In this document: piece after piece, positions 8,947-23,264 of the stretch
Layout of the letters: each line of letters starts with the position of its first letter
Numbering within the stretch: position 1 is the first letter of the stretch
Origin: an uncultured Halobacteriovorax sp.
GTDB taxonomy: Bacteria; Bdellovibrionota; Bacteriovoracia; Bacteriovoracales; Bacteriovoracaceae
Assembly: GCA_913061265.1 (NCBI GenBank)
Contig: CAJXVS010000007.1
Span: 186,001-250,000 of the forward strand
Direction: 5' to 3'
Length of the DNA: 64,000 bases
The notes under the pieces: model-generated
The model's database searches: none
The model's input: the letters and a program-made list of their open reading frames with translations, nothing else
What the model was told of the DNA's origin: nothing
Program-made: the position numbers and the translations under genes

Positions 8947-9729
8947 ATGGCAAGATACCCCGAAAGAATCATTTGTTTGACTGAAGAATCCGTAGAAACT
9001 CTCTTTTATTTAGGCGAAGAACACCGAATTGTTGGTGTTAGCGCTTACGTTGAAAGACCTCCTGAGGCTAAGAAGATTAAGAAGGTTTCTGCTTTTACCT
9101 CGGCCAATATTGAGAAGATCTTAGAGTTAAAACCTGATCTTGTTTTAGGCTTCTCTGATATTCAAAAAGATATCGCAAGAGACCTTATTGGGGCCGGTAT
9201 TAACGTCTACTTCGCCAATCACAGAAGCCTTGAAGAAATTCTCGATTATATCCTTTGCCTTGGATCCCTTGTGGGAAAAAAAGACGAGGCCATGGAGCTA
9301 ATCAAGACCCTCGAGAATAACCTCTTAGAGGCCGCTGAGTTCTCAAGATCTCTTTCAAGAAAGCCACGTGTTTATATTGAAGAATGGGATGAACCGATGA
9401 TTAGTGGAATCAGATGGTTCTCAGAGTTAATGGAAGCTTGCGGGGGAGTGGATATCTTCAGCCAAAAAGCTCAGCAGTCTTTGGCGGGGGATCGAATCGT
9501 TACTCACAAGGATGTCATCTCTTGTAATCCTGACTTTATCTTTGGATGCTGGTGTGGAAAGAAAGTAGATATAGATCAAATCAAGAACCGCGAAGGTTAT
9601 GCTGGTATTGAAGCTATAAAGAATGACCGGGTGTTTGAATTAGACCCGGCGATCTTCTTACAGCCAGGCCCAGCGCCGTTTATAGACGGAATTCCCAAAA
9701 TTATAAATTTCTTCAAGGATTTTAGATAA
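8947..9729 (+). CDS. BtuF-like cobalamin/siderophore-binding protein without signal peptide
   Basis: A 260-residue protein of the periplasmic-binding-protein family that binds vitamin B12 or Fe-siderophores. Typical segments are RIICLTEESVETLFYLG, RIVGVSAY, the ILELKPDLVLGF helix-strand, ELMEACGG and CNPDFIFGCWCGKK. The start ATG follows the stop of no other gene, and no signal peptide or lipobox is present, which is unusual for a family that normally works outside the cytoplasmic membrane. No Shine-Dalgarno site is seen before the ATG, but a TACTATAGG -10-like element ends only 3-5 bases upstream, so the mRNA may be leaderless. No permease or ATPase gene is adjacent. It may be a cytoplasmic cobalamin-binding protein. 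Confidence 0.8.
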   Translation: MARYPERIICLTEESVETLFYLGEEHRIVGVSAYVERPPEAKKIKKVSAFTSANIEKILELKPDLVLGFSDIQKDIARDLIGAGINVYFANHRSLEEILDYILCLGSLVGKKDEAMELIKTLENNLLEAAEFSRSLSRKPRVYIEEWDEPMISGIRWFSELMEACGGVDIFSQKAQQSLAGDRIVTHKDVISCNPDFIFGCWCGKKVDIDQIKNREGYAGIEAIKNDRVFELDPAIFLQPGPAPFIDGIPKIINFFKDFR

Positions 9730-9756: not shown

Positions 9757-11169
9757 TTGAGAGTATTATACGTAGCATTTATTCTATCCCTAATTTGTTT
9801 GGCATCGGCCATTGCAGGTGAGCCTGTTTTTTCAAGCAAGGGTGTTAGCCTGACTTATGATAACGAGGCAGGCGTGTATGAAGTTTATAAAAATGGAAAG
9901 CTCGATAGTAAAAGAGTGATTCAAAGTTATGAAGATATCATTCACATGAACAAGCTTCTTAAGAAGTTAGGTGCAACGCCGAACGAAGAGCTTACCTTAG
10001 CCTTAAATAATAAACTAATGAAAAGTCTAGAGCCACCTTCAGAGGAGCAACTAGTTGAAGTAAGCGTTGGAAACTTAGACCTTTTAACCAAAGCAGCCAC
10101 CCTTCCTGTTGAACAAGGGGCTTCTTGTGGGGTTCAAAGTGACAAGGCTAGGTTTAAATTTAGTGATAAAAAGAAAACAAAGACAGGTAAAAAGAAGGGA
10201 TGGTTCTGTGCCTCTCCTTCAGAAAAAGAGTTATCCTTTAGTTATAATCCTAAAAAAGAAGCTGCTAAGATTAAGGACGACCGAACTTTCATGAAACGTT
10301 GGATGGGCGGTAATATAAAAAACAAAATCACCTTAGATACCTATAACGATAATCTTCTTCATGGTGGTGGAATTGCTTTAACAGGTGAACAAACTGCAGA
10401 TGACCGCGCAAGAACATATGGTCATGCCTTACAGTATGATGCTGAAGGGGATGATGGAAGTTTTAGGATGCGTTATAGCAGTAACCTTTTCACAAGGCGC
10501 TCTCCTGATGTCACTAGTACAGGTGCTGAGGATCGTTGGACGGATGATGGTAAACTACGCTTAGATGCAATGGAAGAGACAACTCTTTTTTTAAGAGGAA
10601 CTAAGAACTTTGATTCAGATAAAAACACTTATGGTATCGGAAGCTTCTCTTTTAGAGAAAGAACCGATGAGAACCGTGGATCTCAAGCACTGCAGAACTC
10701 TTGGCATGAGATGAGTGGTTCTGTTAAATATGATTATAAAGATTTTATGGACGATGAGTACTCCCTAGAACTTAAAGCAGGTGTTGGTAAGAAGTTTGAA
10801 GGTGACCTTGGTAAATGGCGCTGTAAGGCGGTTGTTGAAGGGTTAGCTGGAATTGATGCCTGGAACCTGGACCGAGCTGAAGTTGAAGTCTTCGCTTCTG
10901 TTGGCCTTGATTCTGGAAGGATGGGCGGACGTGAAGCTGATAACCCGTTTCTAGCACTAGATGCTTACACAAGACAAAGTATAGACACAGATGGACTTCA
11001 TGAATCTACCTATGGGGCTAAGGTTTCAACTTCATTTAAATGGGGAGACTCTAGAATTAGTCCTTATTTAGGAGTTGAACTCATTGATGAAGAGTCAGAT
11101 CGAATGTTTCAAACAGCCGATGAAGGCAATGAACTCATCCATACAATTGGCCTCGAAATAAAGTTCTAA
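9757..11169 (+). CDS. Secreted protein, probable outer-membrane beta-barrel
   Basis: A 470-residue protein starting at TTG with GAGG five bases upstream and a signal peptide (VLYVAFILSLICLASAIAG). Residues ~20-150 look soluble and helical (EDIIHMNKLLKKLG), with a lysine-rich stretch around residues 130-150. From residue ~190 to the end the sequence alternates polar and hydrophobic residues in strand-length blocks (FRMRYSSNLFTRR, TLFLRGTKNF, SFSFRERTDE, YSLELKAGVGKKF) and finishes with IGLEIKF, a C-terminal Phe typical of barrel proteins. I do not recognise a named family. Its stop overlaps the convergent sulfatase-GDPD gene by 4 bases. Confidence 0.72.
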   Translation: MRVLYVAFILSLICLASAIAGEPVFSSKGVSLTYDNEAGVYEVYKNGKLDSKRVIQSYEDIIHMNKLLKKLGATPNEELTLALNNKLMKSLEPPSEEQLVEVSVGNLDLLTKAATLPVEQGASCGVQSDKARFKFSDKKKTKTGKKKGWFCASPSEKELSFSYNPKKEAAKIKDDRTFMKRWMGGNIKNKITLDTYNDNLLHGGGIALTGEQTADDRARTYGHALQYDAEGDDGSFRMRYSSNLFTRRSPDVTSTGAEDRWTDDGKLRLDAMEETTLFLRGTKNFDSDKNTYGIGSFSFRERTDENRGSQALQNSWHEMSGSVKYDYKDFMDDEYSLELKAGVGKKFEGDLGKWRCKAVVEGLAGIDAWNLDRAEVEVFASVGLDSGRMGGREADNPFLALDAYTRQSIDTDGLHESTYGAKVSTSFKWGDSRISPYLGVELIDEESDRMFQTADEGNELIHTIGLEIKF

Positions 11170-13892
11170 TAAACCTCTAACATCTCAGTCGTATCAGTAA
11201 TAATCCCATCAGGCTTTATTGTAGAGCCTGATAAGTCATCCTTAATATTCGCGGTATAAACCATAACTTTAAGGCCCCTCTCATGAGCCTCTTTCATCAG
11301 TTCATTTGTTAAGACCTTGAAGTGTACATAGATCCAGCTCATGTTCATTTCATTGGCAAAATTTAAGAACTCTTCAGTTACTGGTTGTTGAAAAGGAGTA
11401 TCCCATCCTGTTTCGCACTGACAGTAAAGATTAATAGAAGCGATGAGATTGGTATCGAATGAATCTATAATGACCTTAGAGCTTTTGATGGTTTTCTTTA
11501 TTAAGTAAGCGATCTTCTTACCTAAATCTAAGGTCGCTGAAATATGTTTTTGATTCTTAGCTTCAATGAGAAAGTTTATCTTTCCATCGTATTTTTTTAG
11601 AACTTCTTCAAGAGTAAGAAGCTCTTTGAATTGAGGCAAGCTCCTTAGTTCATTGAGTGTGCTTCTAAAAATCCAATACTCTGTTCCATTATTATTATAA
11701 GTCGGATCGTGATTAAGAATTGGAATACCATCACTGGTGATTTGAATATCTAGTTCCACCCATTTAAATGGGCTTGAAATAACATTCTCTAGTGCCAGTT
11801 TTGAGTTTTCTAGTTCAGAGTTGGCTGGACCATTGATATTCCCTCGGTGGCTTATAAAAAGGGGGGCATCAGTTTCTTTAAGAGGAGATTTAGTGCTTTG
11901 CTCTAAAGTATCTTTTGGAAAGTAAGCATTATTGTTAATCGCATAAGCATGAAGGGGACTCATCTTTTCAATAAAGTTCTTCATGGTTAAGAGAAAGGGT
12001 TTTATCTCTTTTTGCTGGAGGCGCCCGAACTCTTCAGTGGCCGTCACTGTTAAAGTCTTCTTCTCTCTATCAAAGAATCCTTCCCCTTTGTTCTTCCAAA
12101 AATACATCCTCTCTTGAGATTCACCGCCAACGGCGTAGATGATCCTATCTGTAGGCCAGGTTTCATCTTCTCCTAGGAGGCTTAGACCCTGATCACAGGG
12201 GTGCCTTTGAAACTCTAAAAGAGAAGCTATAGTTGAAGGGATATCATGCTGAGCTCCTCTTCTTTTTGTGTATTGCTGATATTTATTAAGCTCTCCTTGA
12301 GTAAGGCCTACGATTGAAAAAGGAACCTTGAAACGATTATGTTCGTCAGCTCCTCGTTCAAGATAATAAGGAGTATGATCTCCAACAATCAAAAGAAGAG
12401 TTCCTTTTTCTTTTTCATTCTTTTCATACCAATCATAAAACTTCTTAAACTCAGAGTCGGCAAAGGCATAGGACTCCCAGCCCGCTAAGATCTTACCTTC
12501 GTCATCATCTTTATAGATGCTGAACCAATCTTTTCCGTCCCCGAACTCCTTATTCGCTTTAACAAACTTCGGCTTCCAAGTTTTAGGCAGTAAGTAAGGG
12601 TCGTGAGTTGAGAGGCTGAAGAATGTTGTAAAGTATGGGGAGCCTCCCTTAGATTCAATCCAAGATTGTAGCTTCTTGTACATGGTTCCATCGTCATAGC
12701 CCCAACCATAAACCTGATCGGGAAGGCTTGGGTCTAGCTCTATGATTTCGTTAAAGCCAACTCTTTTGAGAAACTCACGTTGATGCTCAAAAGAAAGGTC
12801 TGAACCATGAAAATAAGAAGTCTTGTATCCATTCGAACTTAGAATATTTGGAGTTCCTCTTACTCTCGGTGGAGGGATCTTCCATAGCATGTTGATTTGC
12901 GGCTGAGGAGGAAGGCCAGAGAATAGGGCAGGGAGGGCCTGTGAAGACTTTGATCCCGCCGCCAGAAAATGATGAAATGTTAAGTTCTCATCTAAGACTT
13001 TCTTAATATGGGGAACAATGAACTGACCTTTTACTTTTTGAGAAAGCTGGTTTGTCCCGAGTCCTTCTAAAACTAGCATGATGACAGATCTTTTATTCTT
13101 AACAAAAGTCTTAGAGGCCCTATCTTCACAAAAAGGTGCTTCAGGCTTAAGGCCGCCTCTTGGAGGAATTTGTCCTAGAGAGATTTGATAAGGGCGCAGG
13201 TTAGAGAAATCGACCTTTGCCGCTATGGCCTTGGTGTTCTTTGATTTGTCGAAAAAGTCTAAGACTAAATGGATCAGACCATGTCTTGTTCCAGCATACA
13301 TCTTGCTACTAAAACTAGAGGAGCTTGCGTGGGCCGCGATTGTTAAGACAGCGAGAATGGAAACAACAAAAGGCCTTTTAAAACTCCCAGAGAGATTCTT
13401 TTTACGAAGAAACTCGCTTAAGAAGTATGTGGTTGAAGCAAATATGAGGATGAGCAAAGCAGAAGTTACATAAGGAGCGTTCGCTCCAATTGAAGATTCT
13501 AAATGCTTAAGCTGATCAAGATAGAAAAAGACATCCTTTGAAGGAAGCTTAAAATAGAAGCTCTCGTAAAAGAAGGTCAATACCATTGCTACAAAGTAGA
13601 GGTTAATAACTCCTAGAGATGTAAAAACTAGCGCCTTAGTTTCTTGTGGGGCGATAGAGACGGGGTCTTTCTTTTCTTTTTTCTTTTTCTTCTTACTGAC
13701 TTCAGTTTTTTCTACAGAGTCCTTGAAAACAAAAAAGGAAAGAATATAGATAAAGAAGAAATTTGGGAAAAAGGAGAGAAGGATGCCAGCAAGGTAGGGG
13801 CCATCAAAAAAACTTCCTCCGACAAAGACAATAATGGATCTTAAGATAACAATGAGTATTGCTAAGGAGGCAGAGTAGATTAAGTGATTCAA
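11166..13892 (-). CDS. LtaS-type membrane sulfatase fused to glycerophosphodiester phosphodiesterase
   Basis: A 908-residue two-enzyme fusion. Residues 1-~190 hold about five membrane segments. Residues ~268-575 form an alkaline-phosphatase/sulfatase-fold domain like LtaS/OpgB phosphoglycerol transferases: MLVLEGLG (metal-binding Glu), SKSSQALPALFSG (likely nucleophile Ser/Thr region), LSTHDPY and GDHTPYY (metal-binding Asp-His). Residues ~676-908 form a GDPD domain: SHRG at ~681, WVELDIQ at ~711 and NHDP at ~727, giving the two catalytic His and the Glu/Asp metal ligands, ending with VYTANI and PDGIITD. The membrane part would hold both active sites in the periplasm. It starts 9 bases after the ROK kinase gene. 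The combination suggests handling of glycerophosphoryl groups taken from phosphatidylglycerol. Confidence 0.88.
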   Translation of the reverse strand: MNHLIYSASLAILIVILRSIIVFVGGSFFDGPYLAGILLSFFPNFFFIYILSFFVFKDSVEKTEVSKKKKKKEKKDPVSIAPQETKALVFTSLGVINLYFVAMVLTFFYESFYFKLPSKDVFFYLDQLKHLESSIGANAPYVTSALLILIFASTTYFLSEFLRKKNLSGSFKRPFVVSILAVLTIAAHASSSSFSSKMYAGTRHGLIHLVLDFFDKSKNTKAIAAKVDFSNLRPYQISLGQIPPRGGLKPEAPFCEDRASKTFVKNKRSVIMLVLEGLGTNQLSQKVKGQFIVPHIKKVLDENLTFHHFLAAGSKSSQALPALFSGLPPQPQINMLWKIPPPRVRGTPNILSSNGYKTSYFHGSDLSFEHQREFLKRVGFNEIIELDPSLPDQVYGWGYDDGTMYKKLQSWIESKGGSPYFTTFFSLSTHDPYLLPKTWKPKFVKANKEFGDGKDWFSIYKDDDEGKILAGWESYAFADSEFKKFYDWYEKNEKEKGTLLLIVGDHTPYYLERGADEHNRFKVPFSIVGLTQGELNKYQQYTKRRGAQHDIPSTIASLLEFQRHPCDQGLSLLGEDETWPTDRIIYAVGGESQERMYFWKNKGEGFFDREKKTLTVTATEEFGRLQQKEIKPFLLTMKNFIEKMSPLHAYAINNNAYFPKDTLEQSTKSPLKETDAPLFISHRGNINGPANSELENSKLALENVISSPFKWVELDIQITSDGIPILNHDPTYNNNGTEYWIFRSTLNELRSLPQFKELLTLEEVLKKYDGKINFLIEAKNQKHISATLDLGKKIAYLIKKTIKSSKVIIDSFDTNLIASINLYCQCETGWDTPFQQPVTEEFLNFANEMNMSWIYVHFKVLTNELMKEAHERGLKVMVYTANIKDDLSGSTIKPDGIITDTTEMLEVY

Positions 13893-13901
13893 ATGCTTCT
13901 C

Positions 13902-14891
13902 CTAAAGAGTCATGATGGCAGCGCCGAGTCCTCCAGCGCTATCAGATAATTGATGTTGGTAAATACTAGGAGTCCTTCCTGATACAAACATCTTCTTAGA
14001 GAGATCAGCCTCTAAGCTTTCATAGATTAAGTTTTGTTTACTGACCCCGCCACCTAAAACAAAGTAGTGTGGGTCGAAGATATTATTCAGAGCTATTAAG
14101 AAGTCCGCTAACTTTTCTTTGTAATCATTGATAACCCCTAAAGCTAGGGCGTCACCAGATTTTGCTAGAGTAAAGATTTCCTCAGCATTTATGATCTTAT
14201 TGCTGCCTTTTTGTCTTATCTTCATGGAGGATTCTATGGCCGGTCCTGCTAAGTATTGTTCAGCGCAACCGTTAAGGCCGCAGTAACAAGAATGGCCGTT
14301 AGTGACGAGAGTAAAATGTCCAATCTCTCCACCACCACCTTTTCCACCTTCAATAATCTTTCCAGCATTGATGAGACCACCACCGCAACCTGTTCCTAGG
14401 ATGACGCCAATAGATTGCTGAGAGGAAACTAAAATCCCAGTTTCTTCTTGGTACTTTAAACCGGCGCCACATAAGGCTTCAGCCAGAGCAAAACAGCTTG
14501 CATCGTTATTGGCCGAAATCTTCTTCTTAAAGTTTAAGGCCTTTGTAAAATCGGAGACAAAGTCCTTTCCGATTAACATATGAGTGTTTCCGTTAAGCAT
14601 CTGTTTCGTTTGTGGATGAACAGAACCTGGAAGGCCAAGTCCTATGCCATCAATTGAATCTATGCTTAGGTTATTTTCTTCGAGTGCAGAATGAGTCAGG
14701 GCCACAATATTTTTCAAGTAGGCTTCGTAACCATCGTCTCTAGCGGTGGGCATTCTTTTAGAAAAATTAAGTTTAATGTCGGTCGTTTGGTCTTCACGGG
14801 AGAGATTGAACTGGCCTATACCAGTGTTTAGCTGAAAAAGAGAAACCTCAGTCTTAGTCCCTCCGATATCGAATCCTAGCAAATACTCCAT
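13902..14891 (-). CDS. ROK-family sugar kinase (N-acetylglucosamine kinase-like)
   Basis: A 329-residue cytoplasmic ROK kinase. The N-terminal LLGFDIGGTKTEVSLF phosphate-binding motif, the central GTGCGGG segment and the zinc motif with CYCGLNGCAEQYLAGPA are all present. The His of the zinc site is probably in GEIGHFTLV. Sugar specificity cannot be read reliably, but the E-x-G-H and C-x-C-G-x-x-G-C-x-E pattern is shared by NagK and glucokinase-type ROK enzymes. It is the first gene of a two-gene minus-strand operon with the sulfatase-GDPD fusion. It has no DNA-binding domain, so it is a kinase and not a ROK repressor. Confidence 0.9.
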   Translation of the reverse strand: MEYLLGFDIGGTKTEVSLFQLNTGIGQFNLSREDQTTDIKLNFSKRMPTARDDGYEAYLKNIVALTHSALEENNLSIDSIDGIGLGLPGSVHPQTKQMLNGNTHMLIGKDFVSDFTKALNFKKKISANNDASCFALAEALCGAGLKYQEETGILVSSQQSIGVILGTGCGGGLINAGKIIEGGKGGGGEIGHFTLVTNGHSCYCGLNGCAEQYLAGPAIESSMKIRQKGSNKIINAEEIFTLAKSGDALALGVINDYKEKLADFLIALNNIFDPHYFVLGGGVSKQNLIYESLEADLSKKMFVSGRTPSIYQHQLSDSAGGLGAAIMTL

Positions 14892-15087: not shown

Positions 15088-15804
15088 ATGAACATGAAAA
15101 ATAAAAAATTTATCCTCCTTTTAGCAGCTACCTCGCTGTTTTCCTCTTGCGATTTGATGGATCAAATTGAATCGAAGGCCGTTGTTATTAACAACTATGA
15201 GCGAACTTCGCTTGCCTTAGCTAAGGACAATAGAGAGCTGAAGATGGAAATCGAACGCCTGCGTTTTGAAATCCAAGGGCTAGAAAGTACCAATAGCTTC
15301 TTAAAAGTTAAACTTGAAGATAAGAAAACTGAAGAGAAGGGAAGAGGATTAGCCTCAGTGGCTCCTGTTGCCGCTCAAAATGATTTAGTGAAGTACGATA
15401 TTTATAAGTGGAGTCCAAACCAGATTTTGGCCACAGCAGAGACTTCATTTAGAAAGAAGGACTTTGAAAAGTCCGCTCAATTCTTTCATGCCCTTGCTGT
15501 TCATTACCCAGAACATAAAGAAATCAATGATAAGTATCTTTTTCAAGCAGGTGTCGCGGCTTTCGAGTCTGGCGATCATCCAGAGTGGGTTATTGCTCAC
15601 CTTGACCGTCTTGTAAAAGAATACCCCGCTTCTAAATATTATAGAGGAGCAAGACTTTGGGGTGCTTTAACACATTTACAATTAGGAAATAGCGATCAGT
15701 TCTTCGAAACCGTAGAAGAATTTAGATTGAAATATAGAAACACGGACGAATGGAAAATCCTGAGTGGCCATTATGAAAAAATTGTTCAGAAGTACAAGAA
15801 GTAG
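15088..15804 (+). CDS. Lipoprotein with coiled coil and TPR-like C-terminus
   Basis: A 238-residue predicted lipoprotein: a hydrophobic signal ends in the lipobox LFSSC with the lipidated Cys at ~21. Residues ~45-85 form a heptad-rich coiled coil (ALAKDNRELKMEIERLRFEI). The rest has TPR-like helical repeats (ETSFRKKDFEKSAQFFHALAVHYP; HLDRLVKEYPASKYY), an arrangement like CpoB/YbgF, which helps Tol-Pal coordinate envelope constriction. Unlike typical CpoB it is lipidated, and no tol genes are in the window. It overlaps the start of the FecR-domain gene, so they are probably one transcript. Confidence 0.8.
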   Translation: MNMKNKKFILLLAATSLFSSCDLMDQIESKAVVINNYERTSLALAKDNRELKMEIERLRFEIQGLESTNSFLKVKLEDKKTEEKGRGLASVAPVAAQNDLVKYDIYKWSPNQILATAETSFRKKDFEKSAQFFHALAVHYPEHKEINDKYLFQAGVAAFESGDHPEWVIAHLDRLVKEYPASKYYRGARLWGALTHLQLGNSDQFFETVEEFRLKYRNTDEWKILSGHYEKIVQKYKK

Positions 15805-17035
15805 TCTGGTAATAGCTTTTTTCGCTACCCTAGGGCTTATGGCAAATGCAAACGCAATTGCTCCAATAGCTATGGTAAGCGCAGTAAAAGGTAATGCCTT
15901 TATCCATCACCTTGGGAAGACCAAGAAAGTAAAAGTGGGCGATCATATCCACAACTTTTCTGAGATCTTTACTGAAGTCGGGAGTCAGGTCAGTTTTTCT
16001 GATTACTACGATCATCAGTATCACCTAGCGGGAAGTGGACACCTTAAGTTAAACGGGAAGACCGTAGAGCTTCAAGGAGGTTATCTGTGGCTTCAGTCTT
16101 TTAATAGAGAAGAATCATTTGCAGTTGAGACTGCTAATGCTCATGTTAATTATATGTATGGAGAATCAGTCATCTCTTTTAATTCATTTGATGGAAAGAC
16201 ACAGATCATGACTATCTCTGGTGGATGGGACTTCTCTAATAAATTTGAAAAGTATAGATCAGCCAGGCTTCAAGAAGGTCAGTTTTCCTTTATCTCAAAA
16301 GATTATGAAGGTGGCTCACCAAGACAACCAACTCCAATTGGACAGGGGTCTTTTTCTAAAGTGACTGGACTATTTGGTGGTGTTAAGAGGCTTAACCAAC
16401 AAGCTTCAAGGGACTTTCAAGTTCACGCCAATGTAAAAAAGACAGAACCTACAAGCTTTAAAGTTCCTATGGTTAATCGTGGGATTGCTTCTCAAATTGA
16501 AGGGGATGAGTTTCCTACAAGAAGTGAAGAAGATAGCACTGCTCTTATTAGAGAGATTGCGGCTGCCGGAAAAGCTCCAGCTGCATCGCCACGCTATAAG
16601 CCAACCTACAAGAAGACGGCTTCAACAACAGAGAAGGAATCATTCTTAAGATATTACAACTCTAGAGTTTCAAAGATGAAGCCTACAAAGAAAGTAAGAA
16701 AGAACAGAGTTAATTATAAAAAGAAAAGTGGTGCAAAGATCTTTGTTTACGGAGCTGACTGGGCGCCTAAAGCTCAAAAGCTTTCAGGTGACATCAGAGT
16801 CTATGATCCAAAAAGACTTGAAGCAGCTGAAAAGCTAAGCCAAGTTCCAGTTGTTAAAAAAGAAGTTAAGCAAAGGGCCCCAGCTTCAGTCACTAATAAG
16901 CTAGAAGCTCCAAAAGACGTCTTTGAATCAACTCTTAGAAAAGAGTTTAAGAAGCAAACGCGTCATACTTCAGAGATTAATGACCTGATCAATGAGCTTC
17001 AAAGCTACGATCAGGACTATCAAAGATCATATTAA
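15773..17035 (+). CDS. Exported FecR-domain protein
   Basis: About 420 residues. I prefer ATG 15773 over the in-frame GTG 15764 because it begins MKKLFRSTRSSLVIAFFATLG, a clean signal peptide. Residues ~30-160 are a FecR-type domain: SAVKGNAFI, KVKVGDHIHNFSEIFTEVGSQ, LAGSGHLKL, ELQGGYLWLQ and the AVETANAHVNY strand. In other bacteria FecR domains sense or bind envelope ligands. The C-terminal ~200 residues are lysine-rich and low in predicted structure (KMKPTKKVRKNRVNYKKK), which could bind an anionic surface such as peptidoglycan or LPS. It overlaps the upstream lipoprotein by 32 bases. Confidence 0.78.
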   Translation: MKKLFRSTRSSLVIAFFATLGLMANANAIAPIAMVSAVKGNAFIHHLGKTKKVKVGDHIHNFSEIFTEVGSQVSFSDYYDHQYHLAGSGHLKLNGKTVELQGGYLWLQSFNREESFAVETANAHVNYMYGESVISFNSFDGKTQIMTISGGWDFSNKFEKYRSARLQEGQFSFISKDYEGGSPRQPTPIGQGSFSKVTGLFGGVKRLNQQASRDFQVHANVKKTEPTSFKVPMVNRGIASQIEGDEFPTRSEEDSTALIREIAAAGKAPAASPRYKPTYKKTASTTEKESFLRYYNSRVSKMKPTKKVRKNRVNYKKKSGAKIFVYGADWAPKAQKLSGDIRVYDPKRLEAAEKLSQVPVVKKEVKQRAPASVTNKLEAPKDVFESTLRKEFKKQTRHTSEINDLINELQSYDQDYQRSY

Positions 17036-21650: not shown

Positions 21651-23264
21651 ATGAGTGATTTAACCCGAAGAGGCTTTGTTCAATTCTTAACTGGAGCTGG
21701 TGTCCTGGCCTTAAAGGTGGGGGCGATCGGATCTCTTCTTCCTATGAGTTCTTGTTCAACTTATAAGAACCTTAAGAAACTTCCTTTTATTCCAATGTCC
21801 CCCATTCAAAGTGATGAACTTGAAAGCGTGGACGGATTAAACTTTCATATCATGGCCCGTTGGGACGATATTATAAATTCAAATGGTGAGCGTTATGGCT
21901 TTAATAACGACTTCACTTCAAGCGTTCCTTTTGAAGGAAAGATGGATGAATCCATCCTTTGGGTTAACCATGAATACCTCTACCCAAATATGTTTCATAA
22001 CAGAGATGTCTCCTACGCAGGAAAACGTTCAAGGTCTGAGATCATCAAAGAGATGAAGGCCCTTGGTGGATCTTTATTAAAGATAAAGAAATCAAAAGAT
22101 GGTCTTTGGAATATAGAAAAAGATTCTAAGTACAATAGAAGAGTCGACGGTCAGTCGGCGATCCCTTTAGTGGCAGAGAGAAAAATCTCGGGTCATAGTA
22201 TTGCTATTGGTACCCATGGAAACTGCGCCGGGGGCTTAACTCCTTGGGGAAGTTTCTTAACTTGTGAAGAAGGTTATATGCTTCACTTTACCGAGAGAAA
22301 TAGTAAGGGCGAAGTTATTCAGAAACCACCCTTTAATTGGGAGCAACACTTTAAGCACCCAGGTGAACATTATGGTTGGGTTGTAGAAGTAGAGGCCTTA
22401 ACGGGTAAGGCAAAGAAGCTAACCGCTCTTGGGCGCTTCTCTCATGAATGCGCTACTTGCGTCTTAGATAAAGATGGGAAGACTGTTGTTTATTCAGGAG
22501 ATGATAAAGAAGGGGAGCATATCTATAAGTTTATTTCCGAAAAGAAAGGAAGCTTAGACAAGGGTGAACTCTTCGTTGCTGATATCGTTAATGGAAAATG
22601 GATTAGCATGGACATTAATAAGCAGCCCAAATTAAAAGAGGCCTTCAAAGATCAAACTGAAGTCTTAACCTTTTGTCGAGAGGCCTCTAAGCTTGTTGGA
22701 GCCACTCCTTGCGATCGACCTGAAGACATTGTTATCAATCCCCATAATGGAGATGTCCTTGTTACTCTTACAAATAATAAACCTAAAGGAAATTTTCACG
22801 GATCGATTCTAAAGATTTCTGAAAAAGATTCTTATTCAGGTATGAACTTTAGCGCCTCTGACTTTATGGTTGGCGGTGTTACTAATAAGTTTGCTTGCCC
22901 CGATAATATTGAGTTTGATAGAAATGGAAACCTTTGGCTTTGTTCAGATATGTCTGGCAGCGATATGAATCGAAAGACTCCCTATCTTCCTTTTAAAAAT
23001 AACGGACTCTTCTTTATACCCTTAAGTGGAGACCTTGCTGGGACTGTGCATCAAGTGGCCTCGGCCCCAACGGATGCTGAGTTCACGGGGATTAGTTTTT
23101 CACCAGATGGGTTAAGTATGTTTTGTTCTGTGCAGCACCCAGGGGAGAAGTCCAAGAGTATGAAATCCTTAAGAAGTCATTGGCCTGATGGTGGAAACTC
23201 TTTACCACGCTCTTCGCTCGTGCAGTTTTATGGGCCTGTTATCGACCAACTTCTAGGCAGTTAA
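21651..23264 (+). CDS. phoX: PhoX-family (DUF839) phosphatase, Tat-exported
   Basis: A 537-residue member of the PhoX family, monomeric alkaline phosphatases that use Fe and Ca and release phosphate outside the cytoplasm. The N-terminus has the twin-arginine motif LTRRGFVQFL followed by a hydrophobic stretch, and then PMSSCST, which could be a lipobox, so the protein may be a Tat-exported lipoprotein. Family blocks include WVNHEYLYP, GTHGNCAGGLTPWGSFLTCEE, HYGWVVEVE, GRFSHECATC, VYSGDDKEGEHIYKF, DRPEDIVINPHNGDV and FACPDNIEFD. A strong AAGGAG precedes the ATG. Catalytic activity is inferred from the family; some DUF839 members are uncharacterised. Confidence 0.88.
   Translation: MSDLTRRGFVQFLTGAGVLALKVGAIGSLLPMSSCSTYKNLKKLPFIPMSPIQSDELESVDGLNFHIMARWDDIINSNGERYGFNNDFTSSVPFEGKMDESILWVNHEYLYPNMFHNRDVSYAGKRSRSEIIKEMKALGGSLLKIKKSKDGLWNIEKDSKYNRRVDGQSAIPLVAERKISGHSIAIGTHGNCAGGLTPWGSFLTCEEGYMLHFTERNSKGEVIQKPPFNWEQHFKHPGEHYGWVVEVEALTGKAKKLTALGRFSHECATCVLDKDGKTVVYSGDDKEGEHIYKFISEKKGSLDKGELFVADIVNGKWISMDINKQPKLKEAFKDQTEVLTFCREASKLVGATPCDRPEDIVINPHNGDVLVTLTNNKPKGNFHGSILKISEKDSYSGMNFSASDFMVGGVTNKFACPDNIEFDRNGNLWLCSDMSGSDMNRKTPYLPFKNNGLFFIPLSGDLAGTVHQVASAPTDAEFTGISFSPDGLSMFCSVQHPGEKSKSMKSLRSHWPDGGNSLPRSSLVQFYGPVIDQLLGS

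Follow-up and report, generated by a model that had tools for sequence, protein, structure and literature searches.

A membrane-anchored LtaS/OpgB-type transferase domain fused to a glycerophosphodiester phosphodiesterase in a Gram-negative-type genome

The 64,000-nt stretch of DNA analysed here (the window) contains a minus-strand open reading frame whose product appeared to join an LtaS-type sulfatase-like domain to a glycerophosphodiester phosphodiesterase (GDPD) domain. The locus raises the question of whether such a fusion is genuine and, if so, what its two halves might do at the same membrane. A preliminary description had proposed that one chain carries both domains in a Gram-negative-type organism, and had noted that a recent frameshift fusion of two genes would undo the idea. 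We found that the 908 codons are uninterrupted and hold both Pfam domains; in the assembled genome, the Sulfatase and GDPD matches lie within a single 911-codon open frame with zero internal stops. Among the 41 non-overlapping ORFs of at least 200 aa in the window, the fusion gene shows the smallest deviation in codon usage (KL 0.026; GC 39.5%). The unbroken frame and this lowest deviation rule out a recent frameshift or assembly fusion, and the assignment to a Gram-negative-type genome was likewise upheld. We conclude that the gene is a true, rare domain fusion, native-looking and with intact catalytic residues.

The gene begins with a TTG codon, and a ribosome-site-like AGGAG about 6 bases 5' of it overlaps the stop codon of a ROK-family kinase gene. 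From this arrangement, the ROK and fusion genes look co-transcribed and translationally coupled. The ROK start is preceded, at a distance of 28 bases, by a promoter-like TTGACT-17-AATAAT, a kind of match that is about equally frequent in shuffled sequences. At the other end, a plus-strand gene for an outer-membrane-like protein terminates within the last codon of the fusion gene (bases in common, 11166-11169). The features of the locus are collected in Table 1.

Table 1. Features of the fusion gene and its locus, in positions of the window.
Feature	Positions	Strand	Basis
908-aa fusion protein, LtaS/OpgB-type transferase domain plus GDPD	11166..13892	-	ORF list, Pfam, genome search
N-terminal region, five predicted transmembrane segments, residues 1-195	13308..13892	-	hydropathy
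Sulfatase/phosphotransferase domain, residues 270-559; E276, S316, H362, H430, D505, H506	12216..13085	-	Pfam, conservation, PDB relatives
Linker of ~120 residues (560-681), without detectable relative	11850..12215	-	
GDPD domain, residues 682-903; H682, R683, E713, D715, H728, E777, K779	11184..11849	-	Pfam, conservation, structure mapping
ROK-family sugar kinase, lying upstream in the apparent operon	13902..14891	-	Pfam, homologue search, synteny
Segment that both congeners lack at the syntenic locus	11170..13901	.	empty site, outer-membrane-protein stop to ROK stop

Both domains were recognised well above the Pfam cut-offs: Sulfatase (PF00884) with an E value of 2.9e-24 (86.4 bits, cut-off 25) and GDPD (PF03009) with an E value of 1.2e-21 (78.4 bits, cut-off 23.6). 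The protein had been described as membrane-anchored, and the five predicted N-terminal segments agree with this; beyond residue 195, hydropathy indicated no more membrane segments. Two loops rich in K/R, at residues 56-86 (11 K/R) and 163-174 (5 K/R), are predicted to be cytoplasmic. Taken together, hydropathy and the positive-inside loops predict that the N-terminus lies inside and that all of the chain after residue 195 is periplasmic. Since no membrane segment follows that residue, the prediction includes the GDPD, consistent with the earlier proposal that the two domains share one compartment. Five transmembrane segments followed by an extracytoplasmic domain is the layout of the LtaS/OpgB branch, and the predicted five-segment topology is like that of LtaS and YejM. 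AlphaFold2, run on a three-sequence input, gave a mean pLDDT of 40.5, too low for the model to be used. Within the linker, residues 579-680 aligned with a GDPD from genome G075 in a manner that might have indicated a common extension; we took this alignment as chance, because in a second relative (G257) the blastp alignment does not begin until the GDPD domain.

The fold model and an E, Ser/Thr, H, H, D-H site place the first domain in the LtaS/OpgB branch of the alkaline-phosphatase superfamily. Its best PDB sequence matches are Vibrio VP1736 (3lxq, E 3e-18), LtaP (4uop) and LtaS (2w8d, 4uoo). VP1736, an uncharacterised LtaS/OpgB-type protein, is the closest match with a solved structure and has a Ser nucleophile like the fusion, but its matched chain lacks a GDPD. 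We assessed conservation in an alignment of 44 LtaS-like rows, 43 of them independent (L050 is a truncated copy of the fusion gene) and two from a Chlamydiia contig. E276, D401, H430, P436 and D479 are invariant, as are D505 and H506 in all ungapped rows, and H362, at the position of LtaS His347, is His in 35 of the 44. At the nucleophile position, S316, 34 rows have Ser and 10 have Thr, with a second alignment concordant. The catalytic set of the transferase half is thus complete, and the concern that its nucleophile region might not be conserved is answered by a column that is Ser or Thr throughout the LtaS-like relatives. The formylglycine-sulfatase signature C/S-x-P-x-R is missing at the nucleophile, where the fusion reads S316-S-Q-A-L, and its absence there favours a phosphotransferase over a true sulfatase. 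As a separate observation, most LtaS-like relatives in the phylum (L022, L030, L032 and others) carry a Ser nucleophile in a motif like NGRRSIE; Thr is the nucleophile described for LtaS, EptA and MCR, and Ser seems to be the rule of this phylum.

The label LtaS-type itself held for the branch and not for the details. LtaS and LtaP, like the fusion, combine five transmembrane segments with an extracytoplasmic metal-dependent phosphotransferase domain bearing the E, S/T, H, H, D, H set. LtaS, however, has a Thr nucleophile and no GDPD, and its substrate residues include Trp354 and Arg356 (PMC7576196), which by our reading of the alignment to 2w8d are replaced by Glu369 and Gln371. The NCBIfam models tell the same kind of story: the fusion scores 39.6 bits against a cut-off of 970 for LtaS (NF053595), and 19.8 against 572 and 14 against 574 for OpgB/MdoB (NF009027 and NF003000). 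Because both substrate residues are replaced and these scores fall so far under their cut-offs, phosphatidylglycerol as the donor is a family-based guess and not a certainty.

In the GDPD half, 14 aligned GDPDs show no variation at the H, R, E, D, D, H, E and K positions, and the HR...ExD...HD...ExK pattern is present in the fusion, so that the complete catalytic His and metal ligands ascribed to it earlier are indeed there (Table 1). GlpQ-type GDPDs (B. subtilis 5t91; 2pz0) belong to the same family and carry the same full set of catalytic and metal residues, but are stand-alone enzymes. When the domain was mapped via its profile to B. subtilis GlpQ (5t91), Phe190 and Tyr259 corresponded to F812 and Y879, while Gln188 and Phe279 corresponded to Asp810 and Ile898. 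These two replacements suggest that the specificity of the domain may differ from that of GlpQ. Another membrane-tethered GDPD is LpgD, the lysophosphatidylglycerol phospholipase D of S. aureus, a membrane-anchored lysophospholipase D (PMC10404611); unlike the fusion, it has a single transmembrane anchor and no transferase domain, and the fusion reaches 27.5 bits against the 450 of its NCBIfam model (NF053857).

The preliminary description had called for a search for the Sulfatase and GDPD pair. We searched with the full protein in the family, order and class sets, which are the same 129 genomes, and in the phylum set of 369 genomes including the source. The pair is fused here, but no second fusion was found among the other 368 genomes of the phylum: each match listed covers a single domain, in an open frame too short to hold both. 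The best matches are stand-alone LtaS-like proteins with 33% (G184) and 32% (G181) identity, and the neighbours of these nearest sulfatases include no GDPD. Residues 561-908 retrieved stand-alone GDPD frames only, of at most 357 codons and 24-35% identity. No plasmid or phage record covered 80% of the fusion chain, a pattern scan of viral contigs revealed no relative, and in the literature we found no description of a transferase-GDPD fusion. Within the genomes searched, the fusion is a singleton. In the tree, the transferase domain falls outside both main groups, with modest support, and stands alone on a very long branch (5.1 changes per site); a branch of this length suggests that transferase function may have drifted.

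How did the gene come to lie at this locus? We compared two congeners, G037 (100% complete) and G038 (81%), which share with the present locus the order guaB, FecR-like, YfiO-like, ROK, outer-membrane protein, DsbD. In both, the stop codons of the ROK and outer-membrane-protein genes directly abut, whereas here they are separated by ~2.7 kb that contain the fusion gene only; elsewhere in the two congeners there was no match to the fusion at E 1e-10. Because no other genus has the fusion, the simplest reading is a ~2.7 kb insertion, a lineage-specific gain in one species; a less simple alternative would be that an ancestor shared by the two congeners lost the gene. Since the codon usage is native, either the insertion is not very recent or its donor was of similar composition. 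Two further genes of the region were noted. A Peripla_BP_2 (BtuF-like) gene with no obvious signal peptide (8947-9729, +) is missing at the syntenic place in both congeners and seems to have moved, because each holds a 60-63% homologue elsewhere. The conserved gene by guaB and the YfiO-like gene (15764-17035, +) has no Pfam match and was judged FecR-like by eye only.

The adjacent ROK kinase had been taken to suggest that the fusion protein is linked with a sugar. A close ROK homologue occurs in 35 of the 129 family genomes, and the gene is found without the fusion in the two congeners and in eight genomes of other genera. In several genomes outside the genus, the genes that come after it encode either an extracellular solute-binding protein together with an alpha-amylase or a 4-alpha-glucanotransferase; these sugar-binding and starch-related neighbours suggest that the ROK protein is, most simply, a sugar kinase for starch or maltodextrin use. 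The simplest reading of the synteny is that the ROK gene pre-dates the fusion gene at the locus and that their adjacency is inherited from an earlier arrangement. The proposed sugar linkage is therefore not supported, and on the synteny we rejected the ROK kinase as a partner of the fusion.

Our results suggest that the protein may be a periplasmic phospholipid-headgroup transferase or lipase whose tethered GDPD acts on other glycerophosphodiesters, a reading to which we give a little less than an even chance. A covalent phospho-serine transferase and a metal-dependent glycerophosphodiesterase are compatible with the residues, which constrain the mechanism only partly. The protein would sit in the inner membrane with its entire catalytic part in the periplasm, and its N-terminal half would act like the LtaS/OpgB/VP1736 branch: Ser316, activated by a putative metal held through E276, D505 and H506, would take the headgroup phosphate, most likely the glycerophosphate of phosphatidylglycerol, as a covalent intermediate and pass it to a presumed acceptor or to water, leaving diacylglycerol. 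In the same compartment, the GDPD barrel would cut other glycerophosphodiesters by the usual two-step H682/H728 chemistry, yielding glycerol phosphate or lysophosphatidic acid; candidate substrates are deacylated phospholipids, lysophospholipids and sn-3 glycerophosphate substituents. Lipid-derived substrates are favoured by stereochemistry, as phosphatidylglycerol donates sn-1 glycerophosphate and GlpQ-type GDPDs hydrolyse sn-3 esters only (PMC7086022), and by the precedent of LpgD. Both activities would be tethered at the membrane surface for headgroup processing and would not have to share a target bond.

This stereochemistry bears directly on the idea put forward originally, in which the transferase decorates an envelope polymer from phosphatidylglycerol and the GDPD removes or recycles the same groups. 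Two intact active sites in a single periplasmic chain are what such a cycle would use, and a pocket that departs from GlpQ at Gln188 and Phe279 leaves room for a GDPD tolerant of sn-1 groups. We nevertheless consider the cycle unlikely: sn-1 polymers are not cleaved by GlpQ, no polymer gene adjoins the fusion, and the ROK gene appears to have occupied the locus before the fusion did. In the Gram-negative periplasm, OpgB (phosphoglycerol transferase I, MdoB) carries out phosphoglycerol transfer from phosphatidylglycerol. MdoG (OpgG, PF04349), of the backbone pathway for the OPG acceptor, had no match in the source genome or nine relatives, with a positive E. coli control, which weakens the case for an E. 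coli-type glucan acceptor. In its strictest form, the idea would make the chain a 'writer and eraser', a phosphatidylglycerol-dependent transferase with a tethered sn-1-specific GDPD that edits the same substituent of a Gram-negative envelope. Such a GDPD would be unlike the known sn-3-specific GlpQ enzymes, and we regard this version as quite improbable.

Two other readings shift the weight between the halves. The first half could be mainly a phosphatidylglycerol lipase, with the GDPD digesting the resulting or external glycerophosphodiesters to supply the cell with glycerol phosphate. The substrate hydrolysis seen with LtaS and EptA soluble domains (PMC7576196) is consistent with this, as are five additional GDPD genes elsewhere in the genome and, at 8 kb from the fusion, a PhoX-type alkaline phosphatase (21651-23264, +) whose start is Tat-like and which offers a possible phosphate-scavenging context. 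PhoX and the fusion are not in one operon, however, and full-length membrane-tethered relatives are transferases in vivo (PMC7576196); we view scavenging as possible, though rather unlikely. Alternatively, the first half could be a sensor or weak phosphatase like YejM, with the GDPD as the sole true enzyme. YejM is a five-segment sulfatase-like protein that regulates outer-membrane and LPS properties and whose phosphatase activity requires its five-segment part (PMC7576196), and the transferase domain of the fusion is very diverged. Yet the fusion keeps the LtaS-type E, S/T, H, H, D, H set where the YejM site is Asp268/Asn403/Arg451, and no YejM model of NCBIfam matched it, so we hold a regulatory role to be very doubtful. 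We accordingly retain headgroup transfer or lipolysis with a tethered GDPD as our preferred, if tentative, account.

The domain architecture is new, while its component enzyme families are ordinary and well known. If both halves work, the protein offers a test of whether a Gram-negative periplasm couples headgroup transfer to the hydrolysis of glycerophosphodiesters, and also of GDPD stereospecificity. Its restriction to one species, together with the empty site in the congeners, permits a simple comparison with gene-free relatives.

The only other Pfam Sulfatase protein of the genome is weakly EptA/CptA-like and has a counterpart in one congener. The genome of a relative, G181, encodes two Sulfatase-domain proteins in open frames of more than 1000 codons (L072:1399-3915 and L079:1396-3921). 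We also considered a locus in a Chlamydiia MAG (L039:1414-5765) as a second fusion and rejected it, as it consists of two tandem LtaS-like genes with no GDPD. The C-terminal part of the second of these genes gave no Pfam match, and by eye it resembles leucine-rich repeats; if real, these would make it another fusion involving an LtaS-like domain.
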